DNA of 64,000 nucleotides from Polytrichum commune. Taxonomy: Eukaryota; Streptophyta; Polytrichopsida; Polytrichales; Polytrichaceae. This document shows positions 5,473 through 47,573 of the stretch, piece by piece. The number at the start of each line of letters is the position of its first letter. Position 1 is the stretch's first letter. The DNA is taken from positions 34,192,440 through 34,256,439 of the forward strand of contig OX485807.1 in assembly GCA_950295325.1 (NCBI GenBank), in the 5' to 3' direction. Below the pieces are notes generated by a model, which was given only the letters and a program-made list of their open reading frames with translations, had not been told where the DNA came from and did not search any database. The translations under genes and the position numbers were made by a program.

Positions 5473-5888
5473 TGAATGCCAATGGTGCTTAACATTGTGG
5501 CACGGAGGCATTGCTTCATCTCATATAATTTAGTGAGAGGGTAGCACATACAGACTGTTCGTGTGGGAAACCCAGATGAAAACCACGTTTGTAGTCATTG
5601 CTTTGGACTTTATGACTGCAATTACAAAATGTAGGCATTGTTTTGGACTTCATGACTGCAATTACAAAATGTAGGCATTGTTTTGGACTTCATGACTGCA
5701 ATTACAAAATGTAGGCATTGTTTTGGACTTCATGACTGCAATTACAAAATGTAGTCATTGTTAAGGACTTCATGACTGTAATTACAAAATGTAGTCATTG
5801 TTAAGGACTTCATGACTGCAATCACAAAATATGGTCATTGTTTTGGACTCCATGACTGTGGAGGTGATCATATATACTAACATAAACC
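5473..5888. repeat. 40-bp minisatellite within the CACTA element
   Basis: A 40-bp unit (TTTTGGACTTCATGACTGCA, then ATTACAAAATGTAGGCATTG) repeats head to tail from about 5590 to 5860. There are about six and a half copies, starting near 5601, 5641, 5681, 5721, 5761, 5801 and 5841. The units carry CATGACT and TAGTCAT words, the same vocabulary as the element's subterminal repeats. The flanks to 5888 show nothing else. Confidence 0.9.
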
Positions 5889-7445
5889 GTGCAATGTGGA
5901 TTTGTCTTGTCATGCTTGAAGTCTGAAAGTGTGTCCGAATGCGAAGAAGAATGCGAAGACGATGTTCGTCGCAGGCGGTCGAGGGAGGATCCACAGTGTA
6001 CTGGAAGCGAAGACGAAGATTTTGAAGTGTTGAGAATGATAACAGAGTGTCTTGTGAGGTATAACAACAACAACTCTACGGGATGTAATGTTGGATTCGA
6101 CGATGACGTAGATGCCCATGTCGTAGATACGGATGAGTGTGGGGAGGAAGACCTTGCGAACGTACTGCATGAATCGAATATTCCTTTGTACGAGGGTGCT
6201 CGGACAACACGTCTAGTGGTAGTGTTGCTTCTATTGAATTGTTTCACGGTTTTTGGAGTTTCGAATGCATGTGCAGATGAGATTTTAAAGCTAGTCAGCG
6301 AACTTCTTCCAGCCGGAAATAATCTACCAAAGTCGCACTACGAAGGGAAGAAGTTATTGAGATTGTTGGGCCTTTCGTATGACTATCCATGCTTGCAGAA
6401 ACGGATGTTGTCTCTTCCGCAAACAATTGGCAGATGCATTGAACTGTCCAAAATGCGGACAAATGCGGTACACATCGGAGAACAACAAAAGGCCTGCAAA
6501 GGTCCTAAGGCACTTTCCATTGATACCCCACTTGAAGCGCATGTTTCGTTGTGCCCGCCTTGGACATTTGAACAAATGGCACATAACAAAAAAAGGTTTG
6601 CAAGGGAATATTGAGTGCGTTCCGGACTCGAAAGCATGGAAACACATAGATGCTATGTATCCTGAGTTTGCATCCTCCGATAGAAATATACGACTAGGAA
6701 TGGCCCTAGATGGTGTGAACCCATTCTCCAACCAGTCATTGAGCCACCCTACTTGGCCGGTTGTGCTTTTGAATTACAACTTGCCGCCGTGGTTGATCAC
6801 CAAGCGATTTTTCCTTATGTTGGTGCTCATAATTCCTGGAAAAGAGAGTGTGACATCAGAAAACATAGATGTGTATTTGGCGCCCCTTATTGAGGAGTTG
6901 TAGGAGTTGTAGGGTGGTATCCATGCGGTTGATGTTTCTGATGAAAATTAAAACTGCGATTTCATCCTTAAGGCCATTTTGATGTGGTGCATTCATGATT
7001 CCCCGCATATGGTCTTGTCTCTGGATAGGTGACAAAGGGATATAGAGGATGCACGGAATGCGGTCCCAATGTTTCCACACGCCAATCTGCAGTGCTTGGG
7101 AAAAATCTATATTTGGGACATCGGAGGTACTTGAGCCGAAGTCACCCATATCGACGCATGCGGGCGTCTTTTGATAGCAGAGAAGAAAGGCGAGCACCAC
7201 CCTGCCCTTTAACCAGGTGGGACATAATGCGGCATGCCCATGCAAGGGAGAGGTGGTTGAATGCCTCAAAGGACAACAAACCAGGAGGAGACAATGATCC
7301 AGTGTACCAAACAATAGTGAAGAGGTTATCAGCCTTGTACAGTCTCCCGTATTGGCAGGTCAGTGTGTGGCACTCCATGCACCAGTCATGCAGTGCATTG
7401 AAGCAACTAACATTTGTAATTAGTGGACGTGTTTGTGATGATTAA
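5889..7445 (+). pseudogene. CACTA transposase core (TNP2/Transposase_21-like), broken
   Basis: An acidic leader (5889-6150) is followed by LHESNIPLYEGARTTRL, LLPAGNNLPKSHYEGKKLL, then after a +1 shift near 6385 HACRNGCCLFRKQLAD and ALNCPKCGQMRY. Next come PAKVLRHFPLIPHLKRMF, MALDGVNPFSNQS, LNYNLPPWL, and DVYLAPLIEEL ending in TAG at 6901. Further TAG and TAA codons follow, then another frame carries VTKGYRGCTECG, GHRRYLSRSHPYRRM and LPYWQ (7029-7360). Order and spacing match the Transposase_21 domain of plant CACTA elements. At least two frameshifts and several stops show it is dead. Confidence 0.85.
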
Positions 7446-8464
7446 ATGTATGTATGATGACTGTAAGTAGTCATCATCTTTAAAATTATGCCCAAACAAA
7501 CATATACAATGTGTGGAATTGAAAAGTGATGACTAATCTACCGAGGTGTTGGGAATGGTGGCAGTATCTTTTGGTTTGGCATGTTCTGGATCCCATGCAT
7601 TGCGAAAAAAACTTGTGCGAGAATATCATGAAGACAATCTGAGGCTTGAAAGATACACTGAAAGTGCGATTGGATATGAAGGAAGCAAACATAAGGCCGG
7701 AGCTTCATCCAGTGGACGATGGTGGGAATGGCATGACGGTCTTGCCAGCTACTCCGTACGTGCTGTCCAAGTCAGAGAAGATAGTCTTCCTAAAGATTAT
7801 TCGCGAGCTCAAGACTCCGAGCAATTACGCTGGGCAATTGTCAAAGAAAATCACAGTGGATGGGCAGTTGCGGGGTCTCAAATCGCATGACTACCACATT
7901 TTGATGCAACAAATTCTTCCTTTATGTTTGCGAACACTATTACCTAAGGAAGTTCGAGTGGCAATCATACGAATGAGCAGGGTCTTTGCACGCATTTGCG
8001 CAAAGTCTCTAGATCCGTCAACAATGACAGACCTAATGGAGGAAACTGCGACGACCATGTGCATGTTGGAGAAAGTTTTCCCACCGTCATTCTTTGATGT
8101 GATGTCTCATTTGCCAATTCACTTAGTGCAACAGTTGATCATTTGTGGGCCAGTCCACACACGATGGATGTACCCTGTGGAACGGTATTTGAAGACATTG
8201 AAGGGTTACGTATGCCAACGCGCACAGCCTGAGGGCTCCATGGCAAGAGGCTGTATGGAGGAGGCGATTGGATATTGCACAGAGTACATGCAAAATTGTA
8301 GTGTGACAGCTCGTCGTGTATGGGACGACACTGAAGAGCCTAGTATGAATGAAGAACTTTTAGAAGGCAAAGGGAGACGACGTGTATTGACAGCATACTT
8401 GCAACACTGGATTCATGAGTTTGTCATAAACAACGCCGAAATACTAGAAGACTACAGGGAGTAA
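7446..8464 (+). pseudogene. CACTA transposase C-terminal DUF4218-like region
   Basis: Near 7575 the frame gives LDPMHCEKNLCENIMKTI, the conserved Met-His-x-x-Lys-Asn block before DUF4218. A long open frame to 8464 then reads LKSHDYHILMQQILPL, FPPSFFDVMSHLPIHLV, GPVHTRWMYPVERYLKTLKG, and RAQPEGSMARG. These are landmarks of the DUF4218 region of plant TNP2-type transposases. This 272-codon stretch is intact but cut off from the core by the earlier lesions. Sequence around 7340-7480 partly echoes the MH-x-x-KN block in other frames, suggesting a local duplication. Confidence 0.8.
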
Positions 8465-9599: not shown

Positions 9600-10190
9600 A
9601 GGTCGTGCATGAGGATCCACATTGTGAAGACAATGTTGGCGAACACTAGGAAGGGAGGTCGCATGGCAAAGACAAATGCTATGTGCATGTATCGATCTAT
9701 ATGTACTATATAGACTATGTATGTGCATTTTTTTCAAATAATAAATAAAGTATGATGTTGTGTAAAATTAATAGGACGTGTGAGCAATGCAAATGAATTA
9801 AATTATGCTTATACTACAATGAATGCACCTAAAAGTAACGTAAATGTCCTTGGCAATAGACAATTTGGTCAACCACATAATACCGGGGACTCCCTACACG
9901 TACAAGCGTGAAAGAAATGTAAATGCATCCCAACAAGCACTCTCTATTGGGATCTGGAAACCATAGTCATATGGGTATCAATTTTAGTCACATGGACCGT
10001 TATGAAAATGTAAAATATGGGGACAAAATGTTCCCAACACGTTCTCTGCAGAGTTCCCGGCAAAACTTGTCCAATCTCAATAAAACCTTAGTCATATGAT
10101 GACTAACGTGTGTTCAGTCATCACTTTGGTTCAATATGACTTCCCTGCAACCAATAGTCATATCCGGTCATATGGCCCTAGTCAATTTTT
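9600..10190. other. Non-coding 3' tail of the CACTA element
   Basis: AT-rich and without a supported frame. TAGTCAT and ATGACTA words accumulate in the last 110 bases (10088, 10097, 10112, 10150, 10160), in both orientations, as expected for the transposase-binding subterminal region. Confidence 0.6.
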
Positions 10191-10208
10191 CGTGCTCTCC
10201 TTGTAGTG
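10191..10208 (+). mobile_element. 3' terminal inverted repeat of the CACTA element
   Basis: CGTGCTCTCCTTGTAGTG; the complement starts CACTACAAGGAG, the canonical form of a CACTA terminus. The adjacent CTG may be the 3-bp target duplication, which cannot be confirmed without the left end. Confidence 0.7.
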
Positions 10209-11580
10209 CTGCCCATTCCAAGACATTATGACGAGTCCGAAGTGATATACTGTTTCTGTGATTCTGAATCGGCTCTTAAAGTTGGAAACCTTGAACGTCT
10301 AGTCTACTCTAGGCCACCATTGATGTTCATGTCCTTTATTCGTCAACAGCTTTTGATAATGCGTCCCTTAACGTACCTAAGGTGAATCTCTCTCCAGATC
10401 CGTGGGCTTTCCGAATTTGGTTGGTGGTGCTATTGTTAGACCTAGTGACTTCCCATTTTGTTTCTGCATAATTTAATTATGGCTGTATTCTGTATTTGCA
10501 TTGTTATAGTTCAAAATAACTCGGCTTGCATTGACGTTATCATGTATGATATTTTGATCTTTCCACTGTCATTTATGGTATTCATCGTCTCTAACAAACC
10601 TCATAGACTACATACTTATATACACATGGGACCCGTCATATAGGCATTTATTACCTCTATAATATGACATTGTGGGGTTCAAGAGTGACATATGAACAAT
10701 GTCACAATCGTATTATGGAGGTAGATTCTAACTAGAAAATCCGGCTTACAATATCTATGTCATTATATTGAGGTTGTTGTATTATGGAGTGTCCTATTAA
10801 AGGGTTGGACTGTAGACTAGTTTGAGGTGCATGATGTTATTTTCAAAGTCAAATCATGTAAAGTGATCATTCAAATACTACAATACTAACACCACCAAGT
10901 AATTTTCTCAAATTGGTAGTGATTAAGACATATTATATTAAACCAAATCCTCCCCTCTTTTCCCGCCAACAAAATATGCAATGGTCCCGCAACATGGTCC
11001 ATTCTCACTTCACACTATGCTTGAGGGCCCGTGACCACATAAAACGACTTTCCCAACACCCATGGTACCGTGGTACGGCTTTTGGATGAGAATCAAGGAC
11101 CCTCACCATTACAAAGTCATGGCTTTTGGCTCATGTGTGAAGTGGCCTTTTAATTCTATGTGTATTCTAAAAGACACTCATTACAATATAGTGTGGAGGC
11201 CTCGATGAATATTGCTTCCTTGCCAAGTTGAACACATCGAACATGACAAAGAAGCCTTGGAGAAGCTAAATCGTGACATCTATCTTCCTCGAGGTTATAT
11301 AAGCCCGTTAAGTTCCAACTTTCCACATGGTTAGATGAAAAATATTCAGTTCGTTTGAAGAACCCTGATGTGATTGGACGGATCTCGATGAAGAGTGCAC
11401 TAGGATCCAAATGCTTAAATTGTCATCCATCTTGGAACTAGGAGTTAAGACACAGACTTATTATAGACATAACGGAATGGTAAATCTACACTTCTATTGA
11501 TGAACCATGTGATATAAAACGGTATTGTGTTAATTGTGAAAAAATACTTATATACATGTGTATATAAGTATGTAGTATAT
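10209..11580. repeat. Non-genic stretch with one copy of a dispersed repeat (about 10980-11150)
   Basis: No gene recognised. About 10980-11150 has CTTCACACTATGCTTGAGGG, GGCTTTTGGATGAGAATCAA and ATGTGTGAAGTGGCC. It shares order and words with sequences at 20158-20353, 43392-43480 and, with clear inverted termini, 46057-46569. The rest is AT-rich, with no tandem or inverted structure that I could see. Confidence 0.5.
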
Positions 11581-12358: not shown

Positions 12359-12703
12359 CTCGGGGGGGGGGGGGGGCAGTGTGTTAAAAAGTTAAGGATA
12401 TAGGTGCGAACAACCACTATTTTATAGGGGGGTATTACTTTCAATTCTCTTCTTTTTTTCACATGCTATCATTATGTAAATTTCTACTTTGGGTTAATAG
12501 AAAAATGGCTTGCATTACTTATAATTCCAAATTACCTATTATTCCATACCCTATAGTACTTTTAAAGATGTCCAATGCCATTTTTGATACCCTATATTAC
12601 TCTTAAGTCCATTTATAATTTTTAGCCCCCATGTTTTTTAAATACCCTATCATTTGTTCGCACGTATATTGCTACTCCAACCAATGACTACCCCCCCCCC
12701 CAA
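12359..12703 (+). mobile_element. 345-bp poly-G/poly-C-ended MITE, copy 1
   Basis: It begins CTCGGGGG and a G-run then CAGTGTGTTAAAAAGTTAAG. It ends CCAATGACTA, a C-run and CAA. A perfect 9-bp direct repeat, GCATGGCGC, lies immediately outside both ends (12350-12358 and 12704-12712) and reads as the target duplication. Both ends carry GTGCGAAC about 40 bases in. A second copy lies in reverse orientation at 63076-63418. No coding capacity. Confidence 0.85.
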
Positions 12704-12712
12704 GCATGGCGC

Positions 12713-14160: not shown

Positions 14161-15925
14161 TTGATTTTCCCTACATAACAACTTGGATCTAACCATCTAA
14201 CTCAACAAAACCTAACTCATAAATTCCAATCCAATCCAAATCTCCACACACCCGGCAATTGCTAACTCTAGTGTTTTCAGTTTTTGTTTTTTTTGAACTT
14301 AACTCAACTTGTGGGCACAAAATCATGCTCGCACAATACTCCAAGCCTCAAGCCCAAGATAACTCCTACACTAGTCTTTAACTCATTTCAAGCACTAACT
14401 TAAAACCTCACTCTTTTTATCCTTTTTAATGTCCAATGTAAATCCAGACCTAAGAGTTTAATGACTTTCAAGGATTAAGCACCCATGTGGGCACGATATT
14501 GGGCTCACAAGCTGCTTGTGATATCGGTAAGTATTGATTATTAATTAAAATCTTAAGGGAATTAAGGCCAACTTAGAATTTCACCACCTTTAATAATTAT
14601 ATTGCTTAAGCATTATTTGTAAGAATAATAAATGAAATGAATTGGTGAATTAAATGTTTTAAGATCTAGGATTATGGAATTGGAACACTAAACAAACAAA
14701 ATGAGTTTATGACTGATGTGAGAATATGTTAACATGCATAAGTGGTTTTGACTTATTGACATGAGGAAAGAAATTATAATTGCCTTGGCCAAGACTAGGT
14801 AAAAGACCATCGTCGGACTACAAAATGAATATCTTATTTAATCAATGAGACTGATAATCTTGAAATGATGACCGTACTGTCTTTTCAAGTTACATTAAAT
14901 GAAATTAATTAATGAAAGACTATGGACTACGTTGAAGTGTCCTTGGCTTCGGTTAAGAGACAAAAATGGGTTATTTATGCAAGACCACTGACTATGGTTG
15001 TGCCTATGCTTGTGCACCGCACTTGGTCCAATTAAAATTAATTCACTGTCAGACCATTGCTTGGGAAATTAAAGTGAGTTGAGTGACTGTCACAATTGCA
15101 TGTACTGACATGGAGAGATTTTTGAAGATTTTTGAAGTTTTTATCCCTTACCCATCATCCAATTGTCCATCCTAATCCAAAATAAAATGAAATAATCTTG
15201 TATTTTTTCCTAGTAAACATGGGTTTGTTTGTAACCAAAACCTAAACTACACCTAAGCATGCTAATATGAAATGACATCAGCTTTCAAATTGACTCACAA
15301 TTCTTGCATCTCCTGAGATTCCTTCAATTGTGTGTTCACAGGGTTATAATTAAACCCTTTGTATGCATGTCAAAGTGGTTTTGAATTCATATATACTACT
15401 CAACAAAAATTTTAAAGATGAACTTTATAGATATACCACTCTTGATTATCCAAATATAAATATGCCTCTACATATATGTTCCACATTAGTATTTCTAATT
15501 CTTAATTTTGTTTTAAAGCATTTTTTAAATGATTGTATTGTTTCAATCTCAAGTTCTCGCTTCTTCCCATCATTCCTTCCCCTCATTCCCATGCCCTTTC
15601 GTCTCAGATCCCTCAAAACTAAGGCAACAAACTTTGGGGGCTTTGTTAGTATTCATTTCCTTGAATTTGTATGCATGATTTATACCATCAAAATATATGT
15701 ATTTGTAAGATGTTTCCAAAGGTATATTAAACTCTTGATTTGATGAGGAAATGAATACTCTATCTGTAATCGGAGGTTCATGATCTCCGGAATCAACATA
15801 AAATGCAACCTCTTAACCAACTTATGGGAGGAGCAGATTACAATATTGAAGGCCTTCTCAAGAGCTCAAAAATGGCTCAAAACCTTGGTATTTACACATG
15901 GGGAGGTCACTAGCTATATACTTTT
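14161..15925. other. AT-rich intergenic stretch, nothing recognised
   Basis: Low-complexity AT-rich sequence with many short homopolymers. One 126-codon frame at 15363-15743 on + is hydrophobic and shows no motif. I see no tandem arrays or clear inverted repeats. Confidence 0.4.
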
Positions 15926-16266
15926 GTAAATCACACATTGTTGGGGGTTATTCCAAGATGATCTATTTATCTATTTTAAAAATAATAATTGGCACGATAT
16001 GAGTAGATAAATGATACTTTAACATATTTTTCAAGTCCCTATGAGTAAATATAATATTTTCAAGTCCCTATGAACTTATTTTGTGGACCTTATTTTATTT
16101 GTAAATTTTATTTAGATGGTTCTCACCTTCAAGTAATGTGCTAAAAAAACAAAACTAAATGAACCTACAATATGAGTCAAATATCCAACATTATTGTATG
16201 CAAAGAATCGAATGTCAATAAGGGGTAAATGTTCAAGCTCAATTAATAGCAATGCAATTCTTACAA
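15926..16266. repeat. Degenerate end-like sequence of the poly-G element family
   Basis: Around 16010-16130 the words ACTTTAACATATTTTTCAAG, TCCCTATG and TTTGTAAATTTTATTTAGA parallel the internal end region at 18240-18300 (ACTTTGACATATTTTTAAGC, CCCTATG, TTTGTAAATTTTTAGAGAG). It probably marks the 3' side of an older relative of the elements at 17121-19724. Confidence 0.4.
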
Positions 16267-17097: not shown

Positions 17098-17120
17098 AGG
17101 CTTCTGTAGCTAAGTTTTTC

Positions 17121-19724
17121 CACGGGGAGGTGACTATCGGAATTTTAGAAACCACGTGAGATAAAAAATAGGGTCAATTTAATTCGTTGAGGGTAAAATT
17201 TATACATTCATTAGATCTACCATAGCTTTGGAAATATGTCCCCTACATGTTTATATGTAAAATAAGGCGATGAATAATTCCTTCATTTTAGTAATCAGTA
17301 GAAAAAAATAGGATTATAGATATTGGATCCCCCCAAATGTGTGTAGTAGAATCAATAGAATAATTATGGGTTTGACTACTTGGATGAAGAATTGTGTAAA
17401 TTCTGTCCAAATTTGAATGAAACGCGTTAGTTTGGAGGGAAACGTTGTGGATTTTTTTGGGGGAAAGAATGTTGCGACTTCTCAACGGCCCTTGGGTTTG
17501 CTTAGGGTTTGGACAAGCATAGTGTTGTGAAGGCGGTGAAGTGTTTGGGTAGGAGGTCTTGCATTGGTGAAGCGTGACACAAAGGCGGTAGGTAAGACAC
17601 ATTTTTTGGAGCTTTCGTCTTTGCTCCATAGCATTCACAACATTCACACAGGGTGTTTCACAAGTGCCAAAGATTCAGCTTGTTCCGCTCTCGTGAGGTA
17701 TGTCCACCTCATGCCAACAATTAGTTTTAGTTCTTTGTCATCATTGGTGTTAAATCTTTCCAATTTTTTCGTCTTATCATGACATTGTGGAGAATATTAA
17801 TATGTACCTTGATATGTATTGGAGGGTGCATAGTTGTATCCTAACCCTTCACATTGTAAATATTTGGTACAAGATTAAATGTGTTTGTGAACATAATTAA
17901 AGTAATTGTTTTCAATTTGTGTATTTATTTTTTTCAATTGAATGCAATCTTTTGTTTTGGAGTGGATAATTATGCAAAATTTTCATGTTTTATGACAATT
18001 GATTATATTTCTTGTTTTGTTCTATCCGTGTTTACAACTTGTCTATGTTAGCTTGTACATTTTGTCATCTCTATGTTCATTGGTAATCTTTTAACTAAAC
18101 TCCAAGTGTTATTGATTGTGTTTTAAACACGGGGGGGTCACACCCCCTTATATTTTGTAACCACGTGCGATAATGGGGTATTTAATGGGGGGGTATTTAT
18201 GCACCTCTCGGTATTTTTTCCCTCCCTATTTGTAGATATAAAGTTACTTTGACATATTTTTAAGCACCCTATGTTTATTTGTAAATTTTTAGAGAGACCA
18301 ATTTTTGGCATCATATTTTTTTTATAAATCGTACAAGTACCAAATAATGAACGGAATACTATAGCATTGCAAAATCAACTCTATGAGCAACAAACGTTCC
18401 ACACCATCCATCTTATCATTTAATCGGTTTCAATTAGTTATACCAATGCTAAAGCATTCAAAATGCCATTCAAAGCACAACCAATAACACTTGGAGTTTA
18501 GTTAAAAGATTACCAATGAACATGAAGATAATAAAATGTACAAGCTAACATAGACAAGTTGTAAACACGGATAGAACAAAACAAGAATTATAATCAATTG
18601 TCATAAGACATGAAATTTTGCATAATTATCTACTCCAAAACAAAAGATTGCATTCAATTGAAAAAACCAAATACAAAAATTGAAAACATTTACTTTAATT
18701 GTGTTCACAAACACATTCAACCTTGTACCAAATATTTACAATGTGAAGGTTTAAGATATAACTATGCACCCTCCGATACATGTCAAGGTACATATCGATA
18801 TCCTCTACAATGTCATGATAAGACAAAATGTTTTGGAGAGGTTTAACACCAATGATGACAAATAACTAAAACTAATTATTGGCATGAGGCGGGCAACCTT
18901 CGAAGTCTCCAACCACTCCATCACGTATCCTCCAAGGCAAAGCGCAATCCACCGCCTTCACGCCACTATGCTTGTCCAAACCCTAAGCCAACCCAAGGGC
19001 CGTTGAGAAGTCACAATGTTCCTTCCCCCCAAAAAATCCACAACATTTTCCCTCCATACTAACACTTTTCATTCAAATTTGGACAAAATTTACACAATTC
19101 TTCATCCAAGTAGTCAAACCCATAATTATTCTATTGATTCTACTACACACATTTGGGGGGATCCAATATCTATAATCCTATTTTTTTCTACTTATTACTA
19201 AAATGGAGGAATTATTCACCGCCCTATTTTATATATAATCATGTATGGGACATATTTCCAAAGCTATGGTAGATCTAACGAAGTTATAAATTTTACCCTC
19301 AACGAATTAAATTGACCCTATTTTTTATCTCACGTGGTTTCTAAAATTCCGATAGTCACCCCCCCCCCCCCCGTGGTTTTAAATGGCACTTTGGATGCTT
19401 TAGCATTGGTATAATTAATTGAAACCGATTAAATGACAAGATGGATGGTATGGAACGTTTGTTGCTCACATAGTTGATTTTGTAATGCTATAGTATTCTG
19501 TTCATTATTTGGTACGTGTACAATTTATAAAGAATATATGATGCTAAAAATCAGTCTCTCCAAAAAATTACAAATAAACATAGGGTGCTTAAAAATATGT
19601 CAAAGCAACTTTATATCTACAAATAGGGAGGAAAAAAATACCAAGAGGTGCATAAATACCCCCCCATTAAATACCCCATTATCGCACGTGGTTACAAAAT
19701 GTAAGAGGGTGTGATCCCCCCGTG
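17121..19724 (-). mobile_element. Outer poly-G element E1 (17121-18127 plus 19384-19724), split by E2
   Basis: The left end is CACGGGGAGGTGACTATCGG at 17121. The right end is TGTGATCCCCCCGTG ending at 19724. Immediately outside lie AGTTTTTC (17113-17120) and GGTTTTTC (19725-19732), a 7-of-8 match read as an 8-bp target duplication. The element is interrupted at 18127/19384 by a second, inverted copy (E2). Without E2 and one copy of E2's duplication it is about 1.34 kb. No convincing transposase frame; non-autonomous. 8-bp duplications with CA-x-GGGG termini suggest the hAT superfamily, though 9-bp relatives elsewhere leave Mutator possible. Confidence 0.8.
18128..19375 (+). mobile_element. 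Inner poly-G element E2, inverted copy nested in E1
   Basis: It begins CACGGGGGGGTCACACCCCC and ends GATAGTCACC, a C-run and CGTG. A perfect 8-bp duplication GTTTTAAA flanks it (18120-18127 and 19376-19383). Its left part is the reverse complement of 19384-19724, and its right part (18481-19375) is the reverse complement of 17121-18120. E2 is therefore a copy of the same element as E1, inserted in opposite orientation near E1's right end. Length 1248 bp. No coding capacity recognised. Confidence 0.85.
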
Positions 19725-19732
19725 GGTTTTTC

Positions 19733-25575: not shown

Positions 25576-28548
25576 TCATACATATTTTCCTTCGACGCTT
25601 CTGTACAATGATAGCAGGTCTCCTACTTGCAGATTATGTGCCTTCACATAATCACCTGCATAAAAATCCGTCAACAATTGCATTAGATGACAATGTATGA
25701 CATGTAGACATGTATCTATTGGAGATGGGAGATAAATTCCGATTGAATCACAATGCCATGACAAGCACTCTAGTGCAAAGAGAACCTCACACAAACACTT
25801 GCATGACAAATGGGCAAATTCTGAGTATGGAAGCATGCACTCGAGTCACAGCAAACAGGAACTTACGAGTATTCTCCAATAGATACATGCGGCTCTTGTT
25901 GTTGGACCAGAATCTAAACATCACCCAACAACCAAGGGGGTTGTCAGCACAAATGCAGCTATCAACCTCAACCTTCACAAGATCCACAGTGGCTCAAATT
26001 TTGTAAGTATACTTCATTAAGAAGTCCTGTGATCCTCAAACCTATCAGATCCATGAAAAAATGAACTTTTAGTGACAAATTTTCTGGTCCAGAGAATTAT
26101 TGGGAATGATCTTAAATAAGAGAGATGAATTTATGATGTAACCGAAACAAGGTCCACCTCTGTAGGTTTGATACGAACAATAATTAGAAGGTGATCCACA
26201 CAATACCTGTAACGAAATGTCCAGCTCTGGCCACTGTCAAAGTCCTCCATTGGTATTTGAATCCCTTCGCTGAGGGCCAAATATGGGAGGTGAGATTCTG
26301 CCTCCTTCTGCAGTTTTAGAACCCTTGGCAATGTCAGATTCGAGGACCTGGGATTTAAAGAATTTCAAAATATTCTTGCACCAGAAGAAACTCAGAATAT
26401 CCGACAGACATTTGTGTCATTACATATTGTACTGCACCCCAGGTGAATATAATACTTTCTGTCAATGATTCATGCAACACATCATAAATAGGTACGCACA
26501 TAGAGAAATGTCCAACATAATCACACAAAATGTAACAGAAGGAAGATGAATATGTAGTGGTAGATCCACCTTTGGGAGTACAATACGCCCCAGACTGCTT
26601 ACACCACTCGGATTAAGCTCTTTCTGTAGCAGCAACACCAACGCCCCTGTACTCCGTCCCTGCATGTGGCATCCGAAACATGGTGAATGAGAACGTTAGA
26701 AACAAAGGAGTGACGTGACTCTCCTCTGGCATGATTGCATTGGTGACAATCTAACCTACACGAAGCATCTCCTATCACTCTACCTAAAGATTTGATCATA
26801 TTGAGGACACATACGCATGCGCTGTAGGATTGGCGTATGTGGGCCTTGGTCAGTAGAAGAAAACTTGTTGCTGGAAGAAAATGTATTACGACCATCCATT
26901 ACGACCTCTGGAGACAAAATATACAAATATATAAATTTGGTTGCCACCCAGAGGTTTTTGGACAGTTTGCAACCACATTGTTTAATTTATACATTTTAAA
27001 AACTGGCAATTGCAATGGACGGTTGAAATGGAGAGGGTTTCTTCTGTGGTCATTTGGCTGGAAGGTTTTTCACTCATTTTCACCTGGCAATGGATTCGTT
27101 TTCCATCTCACAAAAGAGAAGAACAGAAACATAGAATCACGTGCCTGCTGTCGAGCAGCTGAAATTGGTCGCACTGTCTCCTCATAATTCCCCCTTATTG
27201 GTAGTACTGCAGCCTCGCCACAGCTACCACCACGACCAGTGGTTGTACAGTTCGCCTGCTGCATCGGTTGTTGCAGATTGAGATGCACTTTCCGCCTCGC
27301 TATTCGACTTTTACGAGACGCTCTTCTCATTGCTTCCTCGTGCACAGATTCGGCGGAAGGGGTTGTAATATTGGGGCACCCCCGCACTGGGGCGAGCACC
27401 AGTTGCACACAGGGGCTCACTGGAGAGCAACCTCCGATGCTTGGCGGGTAATCGCAGTAGAAATTAGGGTAATATGCACCGAGAAACGGAGGACCGCCCA
27501 GGTACGTCATCCCTCCGCGGCCGGGCAGCACGACATGGCCACGAGCAGCCGCGTACCAATTTTCGTGTCCTCCACCGCGATTGAGCTGCTCGTTCGGGAC
27601 CATATGACATGGAATTGAAGCTTGTTGCGATGCTCTGGTATCATCATCGTCGTCATCATCAACGCGCGGTTGTTTTTCCAGGTCGATTTCTTCGCTGCGA
27701 TGTGGAGATGTGATTGTGGAGTCGGTGATGCCATCAATAGAGTTACCTCCGCTGGAAACTCTATCCCGTTGTCGCTGCTGACTTTTCAGGATACACACCT
27801 GATGTAACCCTCGGATGAATGCATCCGGGCTTACGTTTCCCGCATTTTGTTCTTCAAATTCTTGGAAATATTTTATGAACTCTATGACGACTTTCAACCC
27901 CTTTTCACCGCCCCCGAGGGTTTCAATCGCGTCATGGAGTAATCCTTCGTTCACTCTCACTTTCCTCAGCAAGCCTCGCAAGCTGCTCTTCACTGTATGC
28001 TCGGCAGATGTGGCGGAGTCGGGATTCATGTCCTGTTTCAGATCACGGGAAGCATTTTCAACCGGGTTCCCAAATCTCCTTGGTAGCCCTATCGTACCAG
28101 AAAGGATCCCAGGGATCTTAAAATGGAACGGCTGCTCGGTAGTCGCCGGACCAGATCCAATTCTTTCACAATTAGCTCCATTCGCATCACTGTCATCGCT
28201 CGAAGCCTCACGCGTGTTCATGTCCAGCAAACGTCGCGAACGTGGTGATGAGTGCTCGTCAACATTATTTTCACCCACGCACCACACACCTGCAGAGATG
28301 TAATCAACCTGCTCTGTCATGCCTCCTCGCAGCCTTATCGGAGAGGCGCCCGTTAACGAAGCAAACTTTGTTGTGGTAGGCTCAGGTTTCATGCATTTAT
28401 CAATGCAATCTAGTGCACATGTAATATCTGACCAATCTTCAAATACATCCCGGAGCAATTCCAAGCTGGTTCTGTCTTTGCCTCCGTGCCGCCTGAACGC
28501 CTTTGCTTTCCCGGACATGCCGGTAACATAATCCCCCTGCGAAAACAA
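25576..28548 (-). CDS. ABI3/VP1-like: VP1/ABI3-like B3-domain transcription factor
   Basis: Nuclear DNA-binding regulator of the LAFL group, which drives seed or desiccation programmes and binds RY (CATGCA) motifs in known members. Exons on -: 28548-27145, 26659-26570, 26307-26207, 25913-25867, 25655-25576 (TGA), about 573 residues. Residues about 189-230 (KVRVNEGLLHDAIETLGGGE, KGLKVVIEFIKYF) match the B1 region. Residues about 399-421 (SVHEEAMRRASRKSRIARRK) match the basic B2 region. The B3 domain spans exons 2-5: LLLQKELNPSGVSSLGRIVL, KEAESHLPYLALSEGIQIP, SWTFRYRFWSNNKSRMYLL, DYVKAHNLQVGDLLSLY. All exon phases agree. Exon 1 ends CAG|GCACGT, so intron 1 would be GC-AG. The start is uncertain: an acceptor-like TTTTCGCAG at about 28539 suggests an upstream exon or 5' UTR intron. 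Confidence 0.88.
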
Positions 28549-30327
28549 TGAAAGAGCCTGTCAATACGTTTACGACCACAAATGGATCCCCGGTGTCAAT
28601 TAGGGAAATGGCATCATTTGCGAAAACTAAACTGCCAAAACCTAGTGATGATTCTTAGAAACTTAAGAAACCTGGAATGCACTAACCAGGGGGAAAACAA
28701 ACCCCCCCGAGTCCAGTTGCCCGCAAATCACTTGTCATCTGCAACATCTTCTCCGAAATGGCTAACCCTTCGTACCAGCCGCAGGAGGTTAAGCTACAAC
28801 CTGAACTAACGATGCAGGCAAACCGCTAACCTACACGATAAGCTTATCGCAATACAATGGACATACTCATCGAAGGCGGCCGCTCTCGATAAATAATCCT
28901 AGACCAGAGGCGCGTAAATGCATGAATCAAGCAGTACTCTTTCATTACCTGTTGCTGCATGCTCGAGTTAATGTGCGCGCCGCTGATTCTTAAGCACAAC
29001 TAAAGCTTCTCCGGATCCTCTACGAGAGACGTGATCCATAGCCAATACCAATTCCAGCAAGTGAAGCTACGACTCTTCCAACACACCACTAAAACTCTTC
29101 CAACCGACTAACCCCCTTCCCCCGCCGCTTTATCCTCACCCTCAATCATCAGCGAATCGAGCGGCGGTGAGCAAGCAACTAGATGTCCATTCTTAACTCT
29201 TAACTACAAGCCTTGCGAGTGTGGAGCTTTAAACCTTCACACACGCTCGGCAGCAAGTTAAGCTGGCTGCAACCTGATGAACTAACGATATTGCAAGGCC
29301 ACCGGTTGATTAATTACCTACACGATAGGTTTCTTGGAAAATCCGATTGGCCTGATCGACTCATCGAAAGCGGTCCTAACATCTCGCGATTCTTACAATC
29401 ATGTCAAAACCATGCAGGTTCTATCGTCTTCCTTTACCTACTTGTTGATGCATCCTGCAGGCTGAGGTTCCTAGTCTGCTTGCCGCTTCCCTTCCCAAGC
29501 ACAAAATCAAGCTTCTCGCTTCTCACTTCTCACGACTCCCTACGAGAGTCGACACGGCCGTGACCAACACCAATTAGTCTCACCAGTAATCGAAGCCATA
29601 AGTCCTCCTCCACGGCACCTCCCGTTCCAAAGGGGTGCACCTCCCCCGCCGTCTCACTCACTGGACGCTCTCAGCTCATCATCATCACCATCATCATTCA
29701 CCACCATGAGCAGCAGCAATTCAACCGAGTGGGCGACCCGGCGCGGGGAAGAGACAAAACAAAAGCGCAAATTCTCAGAGTCAAAAACTAAAATACCAAA
29801 TCCACACGACGACCTAAATAACTTACCACTAGCTCAGCTTACAACCGCTCATCGGCCTGCTTCCGGCCCCGATCCGAATTCATGCGGCGAGTGGATATTA
29901 TACACCTTTCCTGCATGCAGTTAGAACCGTTTACAAATCCGAGAAGTGTCATGCAACCCGGCCCCCAGTAGAATGGAAAACTTTATAAAAGTAGTAAGTA
30001 GTAAGTAGTAAGAGACCGATCACTGAAGAGATTCTGCGCCAACTTTGGAGAAGTACAAGGCGGTACAAATTTTTCCGTGTAGAAAGATAGAAATCAAGAG
30101 GACTGCCCCCCAAAAAAATTAAATGGGTAATTTTACTCCTTAATTTTGAAATTACTGTGAATTTTCGAAGCCAAAAGTTGGCTTGAACACATTACCACTG
30201 TCTCGAGTTTGCCGAAACCGCTGTCGTTTTGAGACGAATTCCTCCTCACTTTAGCACTCAAAACCAAGGACATGTGTCATGCCACTATCGATTCCCTGGT
30301 GATACCATAACCGAAGTTAAACTGAAC
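28549..30327. promoter_or_regulatory. Upstream region of the B3 gene, G+C-rich, no coding exon recognised
   Basis: 28570-29900 is richer in G+C than its surroundings and holds restriction-site-like palindromes and CT-rich tracts. It is the likely promoter and 5' UTR of the B3 gene on -. CATCATCATCACCATCATCA (about 29678) is a short triplet repeat. Direct repeats pair 28780-28860 with 29240-29330 (AACCTGAACTAACGAT and AACCTGATGAACTAACGAT, followed by CTACACGATA words), suggesting a local duplication of about 480 bp. Frames here look non-coding. Confidence 0.4.
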
Positions 30328-31079: not shown

Positions 31080-31311
31080 CGGGGGGGGGGATTCATCCAT
31101 GTTTCTTTGCTTTCCTTTTAGTAATTTGGTTCCGTGTCCGGAGAGATTTGTGGGCATAATCCGGTTCCCCTTTTCATTGATTTCAAATACTTTATGAAAT
31201 TCTTCAAAAAACAATGGGCAAGTTTCCGGAACTTCACCCGTTTATTTCCGAAACCCCGCCGGGTCATGTGTAACGTAGCATCTATCCGGCTCCCTCCCCC
31301 CCCCCCCCATC
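31080..31311. repeat. Segment bounded by a G-run and a C-run
   Basis: The G-run at 31080-31090 and C-run at 31298-31308 bracket about 210 bases, as in the poly-G element family. I see no GTGCGA subterminal word and no convincing flanking duplication, so membership is only suggested. Confidence 0.3.
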
Positions 31312-31596: not shown

Positions 31597-32532
31597 TAAT
31601 ACATAATTGGGGGCTTTTTGGTTTGGTAACGGCAGAGAAGTGAGAGAATTGGTGCAAGGTGACGAGCAGGGCTGATTTTTCACAAAGTTTTTGCCCGTCC
31701 ACGTCCAAAAACCTTGAATTGAAAGACAAAAAAAAATTGCAACCCATCCCAAAACCGGCAATTTCTAAACCAACCCGTCCATGGAAAGGTTAAAGAAAAA
31801 CCAACCCGTCCCAAAACCGGTTTGAAAATGAAAATACCCGTCCCGCAAGAGGTATAAATAAGTCTCTTACGATGTTGGTAAAAATTTAGAAAAAAAAAAA
31901 CAAAAACCAAAAGATGTCAACATGTGACTGGTTGCACTTGGAAACAATAGGATCTTGACAAATTATGCCTTCAATATTCGTCAGTTATCTGTCTTTTGCT
32001 GTCGATTCTCATCTTTCCAGTCCACCCCATTCTAAATTTTGTGGTTGATGAATTAATGTATGCAGGTGAATCAAGCACTTCAAGATTGATATATTGATTG
32101 GGTATTAGTGGTTTGATTGCAGTATGCTTATACTCACATGTCATATATGACATAATGTAACTGACATTTGTACCATTTATTTTTTTTGGAAAAAATGATC
32201 AAACAAATTGTTATTTTTAGAACCCATCTAAAGTGAATTTGACAAGTCCAAAAACCGGTTCATTTTCTAAGAACCCGTCCATTGGAAATGTTTTTTTTAT
32301 GAACATGTTAGGGACCTTGTGAAAAATCACCATTGGTGACGGGGCATGCAATAGAGGCTTGGGGGGGGGGGCAATGAGATAGTACAACTAGCTGGATGGT
32401 AGGGCAAGGGATCTTGGGTTGTGGGGAGGTCACGTGTCATGGTCCTGGTCTACGTGGCAAGTCTTGGCGTGGCCCTGGGCCACGTCACTGTAGCACACAC
32501 ACACACACCACTGAGCACACTGTACACTAAAC
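31597..32532. other. Non-genic AT-rich stretch
   Basis: No gene recognised. AACCGG-type words recur (31745-31830, 32255-32275), and 31890-31970 is a truncated copy of repeat S. A G-run stands at 32361-32370, and a (CA)n tract at about 32495-32508. Confidence 0.4.
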
Positions 32533-33900: not shown

Positions 33901-35100
33901 ATGAGTTTCTTTTGTCAACAGCTTGTGATGAAATATTGTCATGGATGATTGAAATTTGGATGAGAAATCACTTGACAAGTGGCAATAAATTGCAACACTA
34001 TAAACCTTTAACCTCCTCGGGGAGGTCACTCCATTGTCAAGTTGTAAACCATGTGTGAAAGAAGTTTGCTACCCCTATATTATATGCCATAGATAATTTT
34101 AAAAATTATGATTTTTTTTTCTATATATACATATCCATTGATAATATATTTTGTATATTTTCTTGAAATTTTTAGTCATCTCCATTTTTTCTAGTAATTG
34201 TTTTAGTTCAATTTTGCGTCATTCTAGTTAGAAACGGTATGTTTCTAGAAAAAAAAATACCAAATTTGGTTATCAATTTTTACTATGTAATAGATACCAT
34301 GTATATGTACTCATAATGTTTTTTTGATAAAAGTTTGACCCATTTTGTTGATGCAACTTAGAAAAAGTAGATTTTTTTTCTTTCGCACGTGGTTTTCAAC
34401 TTGACAATGGAGTGACCTCCCCGGGATAACCTCCCCAAAAAAAAATTTACAAGGAATAATAAATAATGTTGGGTTAACATTTAGTGTTGGTGACACTACA
34501 CTGCGGTTTACATCTAGTATTGAGCAAGACAATTAGAATTGGTGACACTAAATATCATATTTAGTGTAGGTTCCGAAAAGTCTAAGCACAACAACATTAG
34601 AAGTGCACCGTTTATGGTATTTAGTGTCACTTATTATTTGGGACTTTGCAATAACTTCTTATTCGAGAGTTCCATTTTTACTAGTGAGAGTAGACTAGGT
34701 TGTTTGGACATTGTAGAACATAGCTGACTTTGTTGGGTGAAACGTTACGTTCTCAATAAATAGTTATAGCACTACGGAACTCCAAATAGTAAGTGATACT
34801 AAATACCACAAACAATGTAGTATAAATTGAAAACAATATGCAATCAAGTCACTTTCATCATGCGTTCGTCAACAACCTCAATAACCATTACTTTGCAAAA
34901 ATTGGAATGATGCACTTGTGAGTTTGTGTAGAAAAAAACTAACACCTTTGTTGTTGAGTGCTTCCCAAAAAATGACACTGAAATCTCTCTATGATTCAAA
35001 TACATAGCAATGTCGATAAATCAACGGTGATTGGAAAGATAACCCACTTGTTGTTGAATAGCATGCCAAGACATTTGAAATGTGGAGCTCGATAAGTTGT
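33901..35100. other. Non-genic, ACACTAAATAT-rich stretch
   Basis: No gene. The palindromic word ACACTAAATATCATATTTAG and near relatives occur at about 34543-34566. The pieces CTTGACAATGGAGTGACCTC (34393) and its complement near 34020 (GGGAGGTCACTCCATTGTCA) form a distant inverted pair that bounds 34016-34430. It may be another TIR element with gggGAGGTYACTCCATTG ends. Confidence 0.4.
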
Positions 35101-35109
35101 AACTCAAAC

Positions 35110-36426
35110 GGGGGGGGGGGGGGGCACACCCTTGTATATTTTGCATACACCTGCGATAATGACCTATTAAAATGGGGGCTATTTACCTATGAGAAAGGAT
35201 TATAAGGGATGCTAATTTTTTAAATAATGGTAAATTGTTGTGATTATTTGCACCCTATTGGTAATTATAAATTCTTGGATGGTTGATTTTATGGTACCCT
35301 ATATTACTTATATGTATTTTTTCCCCTGATTGCCCCCATTCCTTAAAGTGTATGATACAGTAGAATTCTTGTTAGAAGCACATGTACAGAGTAAGAGAAC
35401 AAACATTTACTAGGGTTTAGGGTTCAGGGTCACACTGAAGTCCGGGCAAAGCAAAACACTAAACAATAACAACAAAAGATTGCAATTACATGTCATAAAG
35501 CAACACAAGCCAACGAATAAAAGTTGTGTTGGATAACACAGTTAGAAACCTTGAGGTCTTAGGGAACAGGCCAGCCACATGTGTCTCAAAGTCACATTTA
35601 CAAGGTTTGCAAAATCCCTACAATTGATGCCTTGATCTTCCAATCCTACACATTGGAGGAAAATCCCACGCCATGCAAGCAAAATCCACCTAAACTAGCT
35701 AGGCTACCATTTACACATGTGGGAGATATGAGGGTACTCGAACTGAAATGACTACTACAGATTTCAAGGTATACTAATGATCATTCAGCCCTTTTCCAAA
35801 TTATATCTCCACATGTGTGAGATAGTACAAATTTAGCAGGTTTTATTTTTTATTTGAAATGAACTCACTCAATGAGTTTGCATCTACCTCATCTAAGGTG
35901 TAGATTTTGCTAGTTGATTCATACAGTAGAGACACAGTTGAGATAATAACATCCACATCAACCCACACACAGCCACTCTCAACATACTTATATTTGTTGA
36001 GACCCGGCTGTTTTTTGAACCAATGGAGGTAAGCCATAGCAGTTGGGAAGAGCGTTTCTCTATTTCCGTTTTGGACTACACGTTTCATCAAGTCAATGGG
36101 TTGCCAACAATTGCCCCACTTAGTACCAACCTTCACCCTTATTTTTTGAACCCTTCCTATATAGAACATGCCATATTTTGGTAGCAAAGTATTTAATTTT
36201 TGAAACTATCGCTTTTTCTCCATGCTATTTTATATGTACCACTTAGGTAATTTAATCATGTTTTGTCAAATGCTATATTACATATAATCATGTTTCACAA
36301 TCCCAAAGCACCCTATACTACATCTAATAATTTACAAATTTTACGCCAAATTTTTATACAAGACCCTATATTTTATCGCACGTAGTTCCTACGTTTTTCG
36401 CCAGTGCCCCCCCCCCCCCCCCCGAG
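35110..36426 (-). mobile_element. Poly-G/poly-C element E3 with coding remnant
   Basis: The left end is a 14-base G-run then CACACCCTTGTATATTTTGC and CTGCGATAATG. The right end is ATTTTATCGCACGTAGTTCC, a C-run and GAG. Just outside are AACTCAAAC (35101-35109) and AACTCAAAA (36427-36435), an 8-of-9 target duplication. End sequences resemble those of E1/E2 (CACGTGCGATAAT). It contains the frame at 36187-35843, the better-preserved copy of the unrecognised protein also present at 16267-17097. Confidence 0.75.
35843..36187 (-). CDS. Unrecognised protein fragment inside element E3
   Basis: 114 open codons on -: FYIGRVQKIRVKVGTKWGNC, QPIDLMKRVVQ, AMAYLHWFKKQPGLNKYKYV, CVWVDVDVIISTVSLLY, KIYTLDEVDANSLSEFISNK, then stop. 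It is the C-terminal part of the protein also seen, broken, at 16267-17097. Shared blocks are G-T-K-W-x-x-C-x-Q-x-x-D-L-x-K-R, W-V-D-x-D-x-I and D-x-V-D-A-x-S-L. No N-terminal part remains upstream within the element, where sequence is terminal non-coding. The family is unknown to me. A transposon-borne role is inferred from location only. Confidence 0.45.
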   Translation of the reverse strand: MLPKYGMFYIGRVQKIRVKVGTKWGNCWQPIDLMKRVVQNGNRETLFPTAMAYLHWFKKQPGLNKYKYVESGCVWVDVDVIISTVSLLYESTSKIYTLDEVDANSLSEFISNKK

Positions 36427-37525: not shown

Positions 37526-39182
37526 AGGTAGAGGGTGCTTAAACCAACACTTTAAGCTATTGCACATACCGTACGTTAAGGGCAGGTTCGGCACAAAATA
37601 ATTCTAAAAATAGATACCGGAATTTTTGGAAAATTATTGACATTTTTTGCCGAATATAAAATTAATTATTTTTCAAAATTGCCGAAAAGTAAGAAATTTT
37701 TACTTCTCACTAGAGTTTTACTTACAGTGGAAGCATATGTGAATTTTGAAAGAGAGAAGGTGCTCCTTTTGTAATCAAGCTCACTTACATTAGTCCACAA
37801 AGAATATGGGTTAAGAAATAGCAAGATTCTAGGTGAGGCTTTTCAAATGTGTTGTACACAAATTTTTGGAGTCCAATTGAGCATAGAAGATGAAGTTTTA
37901 TAGAATTTTGTCCAACTAACAAAAGCTGAGAAATCAATCCTTCTTCCACCTCCAACAAGTTTTGTGTCAAAATAAGTCTTTATGCAAAAGATATGGACAA
38001 AACATTGCAGCCGTGTAAAGACCAAAAAATTAAAATGCATTCATAACAGTTTTTCGGAGCTTATTTGTGCATAGAAGATCAACTTTTTTGGAATTTTGTT
38101 GGTCTAAGAAAAGTTTAGAAATCAAGTAATCTTTCACCTCCAAGAAATTTTATGTCATTTGAAGACTCTATGCAAAAGTTATGCGTGTTATAAAAATGAA
38201 GTCTAACTCGGTGCTTCACTTCAAAGTTTACATATCCCATATGCATTGTTGAACACAACTCCACTCTACTTGCATAAAGCACAGAGCATTCTCAACTCTT
38301 CACTCACATCTTACTTGTCATTCAATGCAAGAGAGATGTACAAGATATAAGCTTAAATAGGAAATTAAAAATGAATTTAGGCTGAATTTTTTTAAATTAA
38401 AAGAGAAAATTGCTGAAAATATGAATGTACTATTTTTAGGTGCCAAACCTACTTTTTGAACTTTAAATAATTATTTGGCTAACATGTGCCGAAGCTGCCC
38501 TTAACGTACGGTACATATGGCTATGTGGTTGATATAAAAAAATATACATTCATATTAGCCTTTGGGGTAAACATAGGTATCAAGAAAGAAAAAGTATTTT
38601 TAGTCTCAATTGAATATTTGATGAATATTCAAAGTCAAAACTACTAGCTTCCTTGAACCGATCCAAAGGCCCCTTGTATAGCAACCTTGCATATGATGAG
38701 GACCCCCACCTTTATTGCCTAGATCTAACACAACATAGTTGCATACTAGACCCAAACTACATCAAAGCCCAAGTAGTAATAGTATGCAGTCACATGGCTA
38801 CCTCCATGATCCCACCCAGTTCGCTTGCAAAACCATCACCTTGCATCCCGGGAACCGACCCTCTTGCATCTTGGGAAATGACCCTTTTGTGCTTTGTGCT
38901 TTGTGCTTTGTGGGCCTCTGAATGGCTAGAATAGGCATTGACAAGCCACCCTAATCCCACCTTGAACCAACATGAGACAGAGTGGAACCCATCACCTACC
39001 CTACATGGAGGTAGTGGAGGCCGCTATGAAGTGGCACCACCAATGGCACCTAAAACCGTCACTCCGTGGGTCAGACACTCCTACACCGCCAGGTACGGTT
39101 CAAGGTTGTAGAGTGTTGGCAATTGGGAGGCGTTTATAGATGTTGGTTTTGGATGGGGTGTTGGTTTTGGCACCCTCTACCT
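37526..39182. mobile_element. TIR element T, copy 1 (split by a nested element)
   Basis: The left end is AGGTAGAGGGTGCTTAAACC. The right end, on the complement, is AGGTAGAGGGTGCCAAAACC. TA stands on both sides (37524-37525, 39183-39184). The body matches copy 2 at 46840-47571 except for a 943-bp insertion at 37569-38511; without it the length is about the same. No transposase frame is present, so non-autonomous. Confidence 0.85.
37569..38511. mobile_element. 943-bp TIR element nested in element T copy 1
   Basis: Ends are CCGTACGTTAAGGGCAGGTT and, on the complement, CCGTACGTTAAGGGCAGCTT. In copy 2 of the host element the site reads GCACATACATATGG. Here it reads GCACATA [insert] TACATATGG, so the insertion duplicated TA. 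The TTAA inside both ends also leaves a piggyBac-type reading possible, with GGGCAG ends, TTAA duplicated and a palindromic target. No coding frame seen. Confidence 0.85.
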
Positions 39183-39184
39183 TA

Positions 39185-40550
39185 CAATCAAGACTCTATA
39201 AATGTTATAGGTCGGGAGTAGCAGAAAAATATTTGAATCTTCTACTGGCTGAGTAAAGAAGGCCCGGACCGCAGCTCAAACGTATTCTTTGAACGCTGCC
39301 CGCGACCTTTCGGGGCCAAAAACATATATAGAATCATAACAAGTAACACTTATAGAATTCATACCAATGATAAATAACATTTATCGAAATAACACTTAGA
39401 ATTTATGAAAATGAAGAACATAACACTTTATAAAAATAAAAATTGAAAGTACAAATGATAATACATAATTCAACTAAACTAATTGAAAGAAATAATCTAT
39501 ATAGTAGTAACTTGATGAGATTCTTCCAACTGAACTAACCGATAGAAAGAGCCTATAGTAGTATGATGAGAAGCTTCCAAATGATGAGATGAAACTTCCT
39601 TCTGGAGTCCTTGAATGCTTTTGATGTGTGATAGGGCATCATTTGGTCTTTGTTCAAAGTATTTCTTCAAAGTCTTTAGAGAACGCTTAGCAACACTCAA
39701 TCCTATAACTTCTTCTACCACATCAAGCATATTCCTCATCAACATCATTTCTTGATGTTATGAGGAATGCATATCCAAAAACTCCTCATTGGTAGGTTCA
39801 TAGGGGTTGTTAAAATCAAACTCCATCTCATAATTGAGGTGTTCACGAGCATTCATCACATCACCCACCTCACTATCAAATGACAACAACATCAGTTGCT
39901 GAAGTAGAGTAGCAACTTCATCAACCTCTACCAAGCGCCTAGCTTCCTCTATCTCCCTCTCAATAGAGATCGAAAGAACACCCGTGTGCCTCCAACAATT
40001 TTGAATTGTTCGCAAAGAATATGGGATAAATGTGATTACATGTTCAAAATGTATGCTCTCATATATTATTACCTTGATTTTCTCAAAATTAACACTTATA
40101 GAGCTGCAACTAACAAAGAAGGGAGTAGAGCATGTTATAACACTTAACTCATATTACTCACTAGTCTTACCAATTATGTTTTTGTAGGGGAGTAAAATTT
40201 TCTTAACATACATGAAATTATAATGCTTATAGGGGTAACACTTATAGAGTCTTGATTGTAACCCATGAGTGTGTGTGTTTGACAAAGTTTTTGCAAGTTT
40301 TTCACTTTTGACATGCAAAAACTCGCACCAACCCCCCCCCCCCCCCCCCAAAAAAATGCTCATCAATTGACACACACAATTTAGAAGTTGACACGTACTA
40401 TGACTTTTTAAGAATTAAAAAAAACACATCAATTGACACGCTAGAAATTGAAATCACACGTATTACTAGGCAACTTAAGTACTATAAACTTCAGTTCAAG
40501 TATTCGGAAAACATAACCCATAACATTAGGAGAACTTCCTACACTCACTT
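39185..40550 (-). pseudogene. Broken frame of unknown function (40015-39497)
   Basis: A - frame from 40015 reads NCWRHTGVLSISIEREIEEA, VDEVATLLQQLMLLSFDSEV and MEFDFNNPYEPTNEEFLDM. One TAA at 39758-39760 precedes an in-frame continuation MRNMLDVVEEVIGLSVAKRS, KTLKKYFEQRPNDALSHIKS. It looks like an ancestral protein of at least 170 residues, acidic and helix-rich, with one nonsense codon. I do not recognise it. A long C-run (about 40332-40350) lies upstream, as at ends of the poly-G elements. The rest is AT-rich and unannotated. Confidence 0.35.
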
Positions 40551-41954: not shown

Positions 41955-42530
41955 GTAGGTATTTAACCTTAGGTGGCACTTCCAACTCTGCGTACAAGTT
42001 TGATTGTTGGAACATACCCAAGTCAAGTAGGTATTTAACCTTAGGTGGCACTTCCAACTCTGCGTACAAGTTTGATTGTTGGAACATACCCAAGTCAAGT
42101 AGATATTTAACCTTAGGTGGCACTTCCAACTTTGTGTGCAAGTTTGAATGTTGGAACATACCCAAGTCAAGTAGGTCTTTAACCTTAGGTGACACTTCCA
42201 ACTCTGCGTACAAGTTTGATTGTTGGAACATACCCAAGTCAAGTAGGTGTTTAACCTTAGGTGACACTTCCAACTCTGCGTACAAGTTTGATTGTTGGAA
42301 CATACCCAAGTCAAGTAGGTATTTAACCTTAGGTGGCACTTCCAACTTTGCGTACAAGTTTGAATGTTGGAACATACCCAAGTCAAGTAGGTATTTAACC
42401 TTAGGTGGCACTTCCAACTCTGTGTACAAGTTTGATTGTTGGAACATACCCAAGTCAAGTAGGTATTTAACCTTAGGTGGCACTTCCAACTCTGCGTACA
42501 ATTTTGATTGTTGGAACATACCCAAGTCAA
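41955..42530. repeat. 72-bp minisatellite, eight copies
   Basis: The unit starts GTAGGTATTTAACCTTAGGT and contains CAAGTTTGATTGTTGGAACA. Copies start at 41955, 42027, 42099, 42171, 42243, 42315, 42387 and 42459, differing at a handful of positions. Because 72 is divisible by three and no unit frame has a stop, three frames stay open for almost 200 codons each. I therefore do not call a gene. Confidence 0.95.
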
Positions 42531-47571: not shown

Positions 47572-47573
47572 TA

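Follow-up and report, generated by a model that had tools for sequence, protein, structure and literature searches.

A nested, inverted pair of G-tipped elements and its relatives in a 64-kb window of Polytrichum commune: probable non-autonomous DNA transposons

How did two closely similar sequences come to lie head-on, one inside the other, in the genome of Polytrichum commune, and what kind of mobile element are they? The window, i.e., the whole stretch of 64,000 nucleotides analysed here, contains at 17113-19732 a segment with the order A-L-A'-L', in which A' and L' are the reverse complements of A and L. This order had been noted from the letters alone and was borne out by self-alignment. 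Four pairs of inverted arms are 92-93% identical (17124-17467/19022-19365, 17767-17982/18613-18828, 17977-18127/18469-18619 and 18128-18474/19378-19724), two shorter pairs are 89-90% identical (17437-17543/18945-19051 and 17701-17763/18833-18895), and self-BLAST of the nested pair gave arms of 91-94% identity.

Boundaries and insertion history of the nested pair

The outer element is called E1 and the inner one E2. Their parts are as follows.

17113-17120, unstranded: target duplication of E1, left copy, AGTTTTTC, agreeing with the right copy at 7 of 8 bases
17121-18127, plus strand: left part of E1 (A), 1,007 nt including the left copy of the E2 duplication, with the tip CACGGGGAGG
18120-18127, unstranded: target duplication of E2, left copy, GTTTTAAA, which is the last 8 bases of the left part of E1 (8 of 8)
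18128-19375, minus strand: E2 (L then A'), 1,248 nt, in the orientation opposite to E1, with the tips CACGGGGGGG (G7) and, reversed, CACGGGG... (G14) at its ends
18163-18170, plus strand: subterminal ACGTGCGA of E2, 36 nt from the E2 tip
19376-19383, unstranded: target duplication of E2, right copy, GTTTTAAA (8 of 8)
19384-19724, plus strand: right part of E1 (L'), 341 nt, with the tip (reversed) CACGGGGGGA
19682-19689, minus strand: subterminal ACGTGCGA of E1, 36 nt from the right tip of E1
19725-19732, unstranded: target duplication of E1, right copy, GGTTTTTC, agreeing with the left copy at 7 of 8 bases

E1 thus totals 1,348 nt (17121-18127 plus 19384-19724) and is split by E2. The predicted bounds of both elements and their 8-bp duplications were confirmed, with GTTTTAAA matching at 8 of 8 bases and AGTTTTTC/GGTTTTTC at 7 of 8. 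The flanks of E1 match at 8 of 8 bases (GTTTTTCC) when the register is moved one base to the right; the 7 of 8 register, set solely by the likeness of the tips to those of E2, was kept because the tips then read CACGGGG as in E2, whose register is unambiguous. The original prediction placed the insertion close to the right end of the outer element, whereas 341 nt of the 1,348-nt E1 actually follow it.

The uninterrupted E2 can be used as a paralogous empty site for the junction in E1. When one copy of GTTTTAAA is retained, 66 of the 72 bases across the junction match, as against 43 of 72 with both copies or with neither. Since the empty site fits with one copy of the duplication alone, E2 was inserted into E1 with duplication of 8 bp, and E2 is the younger element here. 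A later, inverted insertion of E2 at this site into an older relative, E1, is accordingly supported, and the predicted order of events stands.

In contrast, the description of the two elements as twins did not hold. The alignment of the reconstructed E1 with E2 gave 91.3% identity over 1,239 positions (74 transitions, 34 transversions; Kimura distance 0.094), and 92.6% was obtained over three BLAST blocks. The copies are thus 91-93% alike and differ in one internal block of about 108 positions, which is absent from E2 relative to E1. E1 and E2 are sister copies, not twins.

The pair very probably consists of two nested cut-and-paste DNA transposons, both non-autonomous and from a single family, that were inserted in two successive steps, a mostly ordinary event. 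The layout of two copies nested head-on could also go back to an origin of the double-Ds type, in which E1's own sister copy was inserted and all differences arose afterwards, and the perfect duplication around E2 is compatible with some age. Nevertheless, a divergence of about 7-9% and a block of about 108 positions are more easily obtained from a copy that was already different, and such a self-insertion is quite improbable.

Neighbouring elements, target duplications and the subterminal motif

Four further elements and one lone end of the same kind are found in the window.

12359-12704, plus strand: M1, 346 nt, tips of the E1/E2 type, duplication CATGGCGC (8 of 8)
15897-15944, plus strand: X1, a lone left end, CATGGGGAGGTCAC
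34016-34425, unstranded: T1, 410 nt, duplication TTAACCTC/ATAACCTC (7 of 8; 8 of 8 one base to the right)
35109-36426, minus strand: E3, a distant relative of E1 and E2, 1,318 nt, oriented like E2, duplication AACTCAAA (8 of 8)
63076-63418, minus strand: M2, 343 nt, an inverted relative of M1, duplication TCAGGGAG/TCGGGGAG (7 of 8)

M2 and M1 share 95.5% identity over 332 positions, and the inverted repeats of T1 are about 46 nt long and 93.5% identical. E3 has tips with G15 and G17. Because its left tip has the C-GGGG form (C-G15), E3 was missed by the strict tip pattern and was picked up in the self-alignment. No convincing right end was found for X1. In the register adopted, three of the six element duplications match at 7 of 8 bases; a shift by one base brings two of these three to 8 of 8. 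The gain lies in six elements (E1, E2, E3, M1, M2 and T1) that share a tip type, a duplication size and a subterminal motif; a G-rich end type common to the nested pair and four neighbours is unusual.

The flanking duplications were compared with several controls. Strict tips, defined as C-N-Y-GGGG ... CCCC-R-N-G spaced 80-4000 nt apart, form 21 pairs in the window, and in five of them the 8-bp flanks agree with no more than one mismatch. The remaining lengths from 3 to 12, for which an exact match was required at 3-5 bp and one mismatch was allowed from 6 bp, yielded a single match (9498/12704; 6 bp, one base mismatched). Of the 788 pairs formed by relaxed tips in the 64-kb window, 6 match at 8 bp, and none at 5, 6 or 7 bp (exact) or at 9 or 10 bp (one mismatch allowed). 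Duplications of 9 bp were rejected on the same count (0 of 788 against 6 of 788 at 8 bp). For random positions, the match rate at 8 bp with one mismatch allowed was 0.00066 (200,000 draws). When the positions of the relaxed tips were shifted, the mean was 0.57 matches and the maximum 7, and at least six were reached in 3 of 2,000 trials. A chance origin of the flank matches was rejected through the random-draw and the shifted-position controls. One 11-bp flank match of relaxed tips, with one mismatch (9883-11033), counts against a uniform 8-bp picture. This pair reads C-N-N-GGG ... CCC-N-N-G and is perhaps another kind of element, perhaps chance.

These data also bear on the possibility that the nesting is mimicked by an assembly misjoin or another rearrangement. 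Sequencing is difficult through G/C runs of up to 17, which would favour such errors. However, an exact 8-bp duplication together with the empty-site fit at the junction would hardly be produced in this way, the same duplication size is found in four other elements, and the G count is only 4 at three tips (E1 left and both T1 tips). A misjoin is thus highly unlikely. As the main reading, an assembly artefact was rejected by the empty-site match and the neighbouring elements.

Within the tips, the perfect octamer ACGTGCGA occurs at six sites in the 64 kb, both strands included, each of them beginning 36-46 nt from a tip: E1 right, E2 left, E3 right, M1 right, M2 left and T1 right. Under a first-order Markov model, 0.43 sites are expected per window, with a maximum of 2 in 30 simulations, as against 6 observed, an enrichment that is partly after the fact as the octamer was discovered by inspecting these tips. 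The other 6 of the 12 tips have a varied motif alone, namely CACGTGAGA (E1 left, E2 right), CACCTGCGA (E3 left), AGGTGCGA (M1 left, M2 right) and ATGTGTGA (T1 left). A search for [AG]NGTGCGA at 20-60 nt after GGGG gave 10 places, 8 of which are tips of these elements; those at 8935 and 3562 are not. The distance between motif and tip shifts between copies: in E1 and E2 it is 33 against 40 nt at one end, in M1 and M2 40 against 46 and 44 against 36 nt. ACGTGCGA is regarded as a putative transposase-binding site, comparable to AAACGG of Ac (PMC3260210) and to the repeats near the tips of Hermes (PMC10368747).

A model for the history of the locus can be proposed for the two-step reading. E1 arrived first and duplicated 8 bp of its target. 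E2, a sister copy with another interior block, later entered E1 in inverted orientation, 341 nt short of the right end of E1, with an 8-bp duplication of E1 sequence. The elements were presumably moved in trans by a transposase encoded elsewhere. Such an enzyme would recognize the C-N-Y-GGGG tip and, about 33-46 nt further in, a subterminal site near ACGTGCGA; it would cleave at the tips and, like hAT transposases, insert the element at target cuts staggered by 8 bp. The observations on which the model draws are the boundaries, the duplications, the relative order, the paralogous empty site and, in six elements, the tips together with a perfect or varied motif.

Coding content and superfamily

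Ten ORFs of E1, E2 and E3, taken from 44 listed ORFs of at least 40 aa, gave no Pfam match at the cut-off, which fits non-autonomous elements. Weak Pfam matches in element ORFs (E 0.012 to 0.12) stayed under the curated cut-offs and were taken as chance. The minus strand of E3 contains an open frame of 120 codons (35846-36205), for which 15 homologues (64-95% identity) were found, all without a functional name. The family of this frame (16 members) matched 0 Pfam families at E up to 1 and one PDB sequence (E 0.73, taken as chance), and its predicted structure has a mean pLDDT of 35.7. The frame may be a captured exon or a gene of the element, and E3 is so possibly not gene-free. A profile scan of viral contigs with this frame yielded 19 stretches with the pattern and no relative. 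Similarly, scans with the element pattern gave 0 matches in viral contigs and in bacterial and archaeal genome contigs, where a plant element is unlikely. Rfam gave 0 matches in the window at gathering scores, and a literature search for GGGGAGGTCAC returned matches under unrelated titles only.

As for the superfamily, hAT had been suggested from the duplication size and the tips. The end consensus of hAT elements is taken here as YARNG, with a purine as the third base; the term did not occur in seven papers searched for it. The tips found here, apart from the left tip of E3, read C-(A/T/C)-(C/T)-GGGG; CACGG, CTCGG, CTTGG and CCCGG fit this consensus at positions 1 and 5, but never at position 3, where C or T is found, and several have T or C at the second position. 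Neither a hAT domain nor a KDZ transposase was found in the 20 ORFs scanned (10 from the elements, 10 from the window). The remains of a tnp2-type transposase lie at 5886-8464 (PF02992 in 6361-6900, PF13960 in 7643-8461), and this kind alone (PF02992, with PF13960) is represented among the transposase domains of the window ORFs scanned. We take these domains to belong to CACTA elements, which have shorter duplications.

For hAT, 8-bp duplications and terminal inverted repeats of 10-25 bp have been described (PMC3942097). The terminal repeats here are about 46 bp long in T1, while E1, E2, M1 and M2 share 4-7 bases and a G run, followed by the motif. Short tips with subterminal repeats agree with what is described for hAT and for Ac/Ds (PMC3942097, PMC3260210). 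Zisupton (KDZ) also generates 8-bp duplications (PMC12730594) and is likened to the present elements by duplication size. All six elements have the duplication of 8 bp that characterizes both hAT and Zisupton. The suggestion of hAT agrees with the 8-bp size, which Zisupton fits as well, and hAT is a candidate superfamily, with no hAT domain in the 20 ORFs scanned. The elements likely work like hAT. That they belong to hAT in the strict sense and were moved by a hAT transposase is an evenly balanced proposition, with the six duplications, short tips and subterminal repeats on one side and the apparently deviating tips and the absence of the domain from the scanned ORFs on the other. Another superfamily with 8-bp duplications, e.g., Zisupton or an undescribed one, is a serious possibility somewhat short of even; the apparent deviation of the tips from the hAT consensus speaks for it, and the lack of a KDZ transposase among the same 20 ORFs speaks against Zisupton.

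Variable G runs and the comparison with maize Ds

The original prediction named the pair a poly-G element. G runs are indeed present at the tips, with the exception of the left tip of E1 (CACGGGGAGG), which has a run of only 4 G; the corresponding end of E2 has G14. At corresponding ends of M1 and M2 the runs measure 15 against 7 and 11 against 17. The left tip of E1, both T1 tips and X1 read C-N-Y-GGGGAGGT(C/G)AC, with 4 G each. Since short-G tips have the form C-N-Y-GGGGAGGTSAC, the long G runs seem to have expanded later. In the simplest reading, GGGGAGG would be older, the A would have been lost and the run (4 to 17) would then have grown by slippage; the reverse order is possible. Twelve runs of at least 9 G or C are present in the window, six at element tips and six elsewhere. 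The latter, of 10-18, are located at:

31081-31090
31296-31308
32361-32371
40332-40349
57524-57533
59505-59514

The run at 32361 starts with CTTGGGG, and no fitting partner end was found for it.

The double Ds of maize consists of two identical Ds copies in head-on orientation, with opposite kinds of tips pointing one way, a geometry that breaks chromosomes. In the nested pair, the A tip (17121) and the L tip (18128) point in the same direction, as do the A' tip (19375) and the L' tip (19724). E1 and E2 thus have the end geometry that defines a double Ds, with opposite kinds of ends in direct orientation. In contrast to the identical copies of a double Ds, they are 91-93% alike. The nesting of an element within another of its family is shared with the maize double Ds (PMC3260210). 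According to the same study, maize Ds elements (Ds1, Ds2, Ds-l4; hAT) are non-autonomous, have 8-bp duplications and short common tips, and contain subterminal transposase-binding repeats (putative in the present elements) with variable filler between them (PMC3260210). Their tips are, however, 11 bp common to Ac and their repeat is AAACGG (PMC3260210), whereas the elements described here have C-N-Y-GGGG tips, variable G runs and the motif ACGTGCGA, without a known Ac-like partner.

Nested Ds elements are described in the maize survey as rarer than nested retrotransposons, probably through their chromosome-breaking properties (PMC3260210). The survey reports no double Ds in B73 and one Ds-l4 nested within a Ds-l3 (PMC3260210). 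Nesting as such is therefore not new, but given the rarity of nested Ds in maize, an inverted nested pair that persists is of some interest. Its persistence suggests that no active matching transposase is present. A transcript across the pair, if one is made, would fold as a hairpin, with 831 A-A' pairs predicted over its 2,604 nt.

The nested pair supplies exact ends, a duplication size and an order of events for a family that was not matched to a described one in the literature searched. Furthermore, the tip and subterminal motif obtained from the pair and its four neighbours offer a handle for finding the transposase in the host genome. Because corresponding ends differ in the length of their G runs, it can be tested whether a transposase puts up with varying spacing of tip and site or whether the runs grew after insertion. 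A further-reaching reading, which we consider rather unlikely, would be a hitherto undescribed lineage of bryophyte cut-and-paste transposons with 8-bp duplications, in which the cut site is separated from the subterminal site by a G run of unstable length (4 to 17) and the spacing therefore varies from copy to copy. The nested pair would then be a surviving natural configuration of the double-Ds type that, if transcribed, forms a hairpin able to silence the family. If this were true, the transposase would tolerate shifted subterminal repeats, a shift relative to the tip that is reportedly not tolerated by Hermes (PMC10368747).

Other features of the window were recorded as well. An open frame of 496 codons on the minus strand (27073-28560) has three homologues (84-91%) without functional names and no Pfam match. 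Two direct repeats (38512-39185 and 46881-47574) are 78% identical over 700 positions. A tandem array at 41955-42532 has a period of 72 bp, with copies about 94-99% alike by self-BLAST, and is open in more than one frame. An ORF at 55499-56158 contains glutathione S-transferase domains and has 24 homologues; the three that carry an organism name come from Ceratodon purpureus (58%), Marchantia polymorpha (54%) and Physcomitrium patens (53%), which points to a probable bryophyte host, and the best is an unnamed protein (93%).
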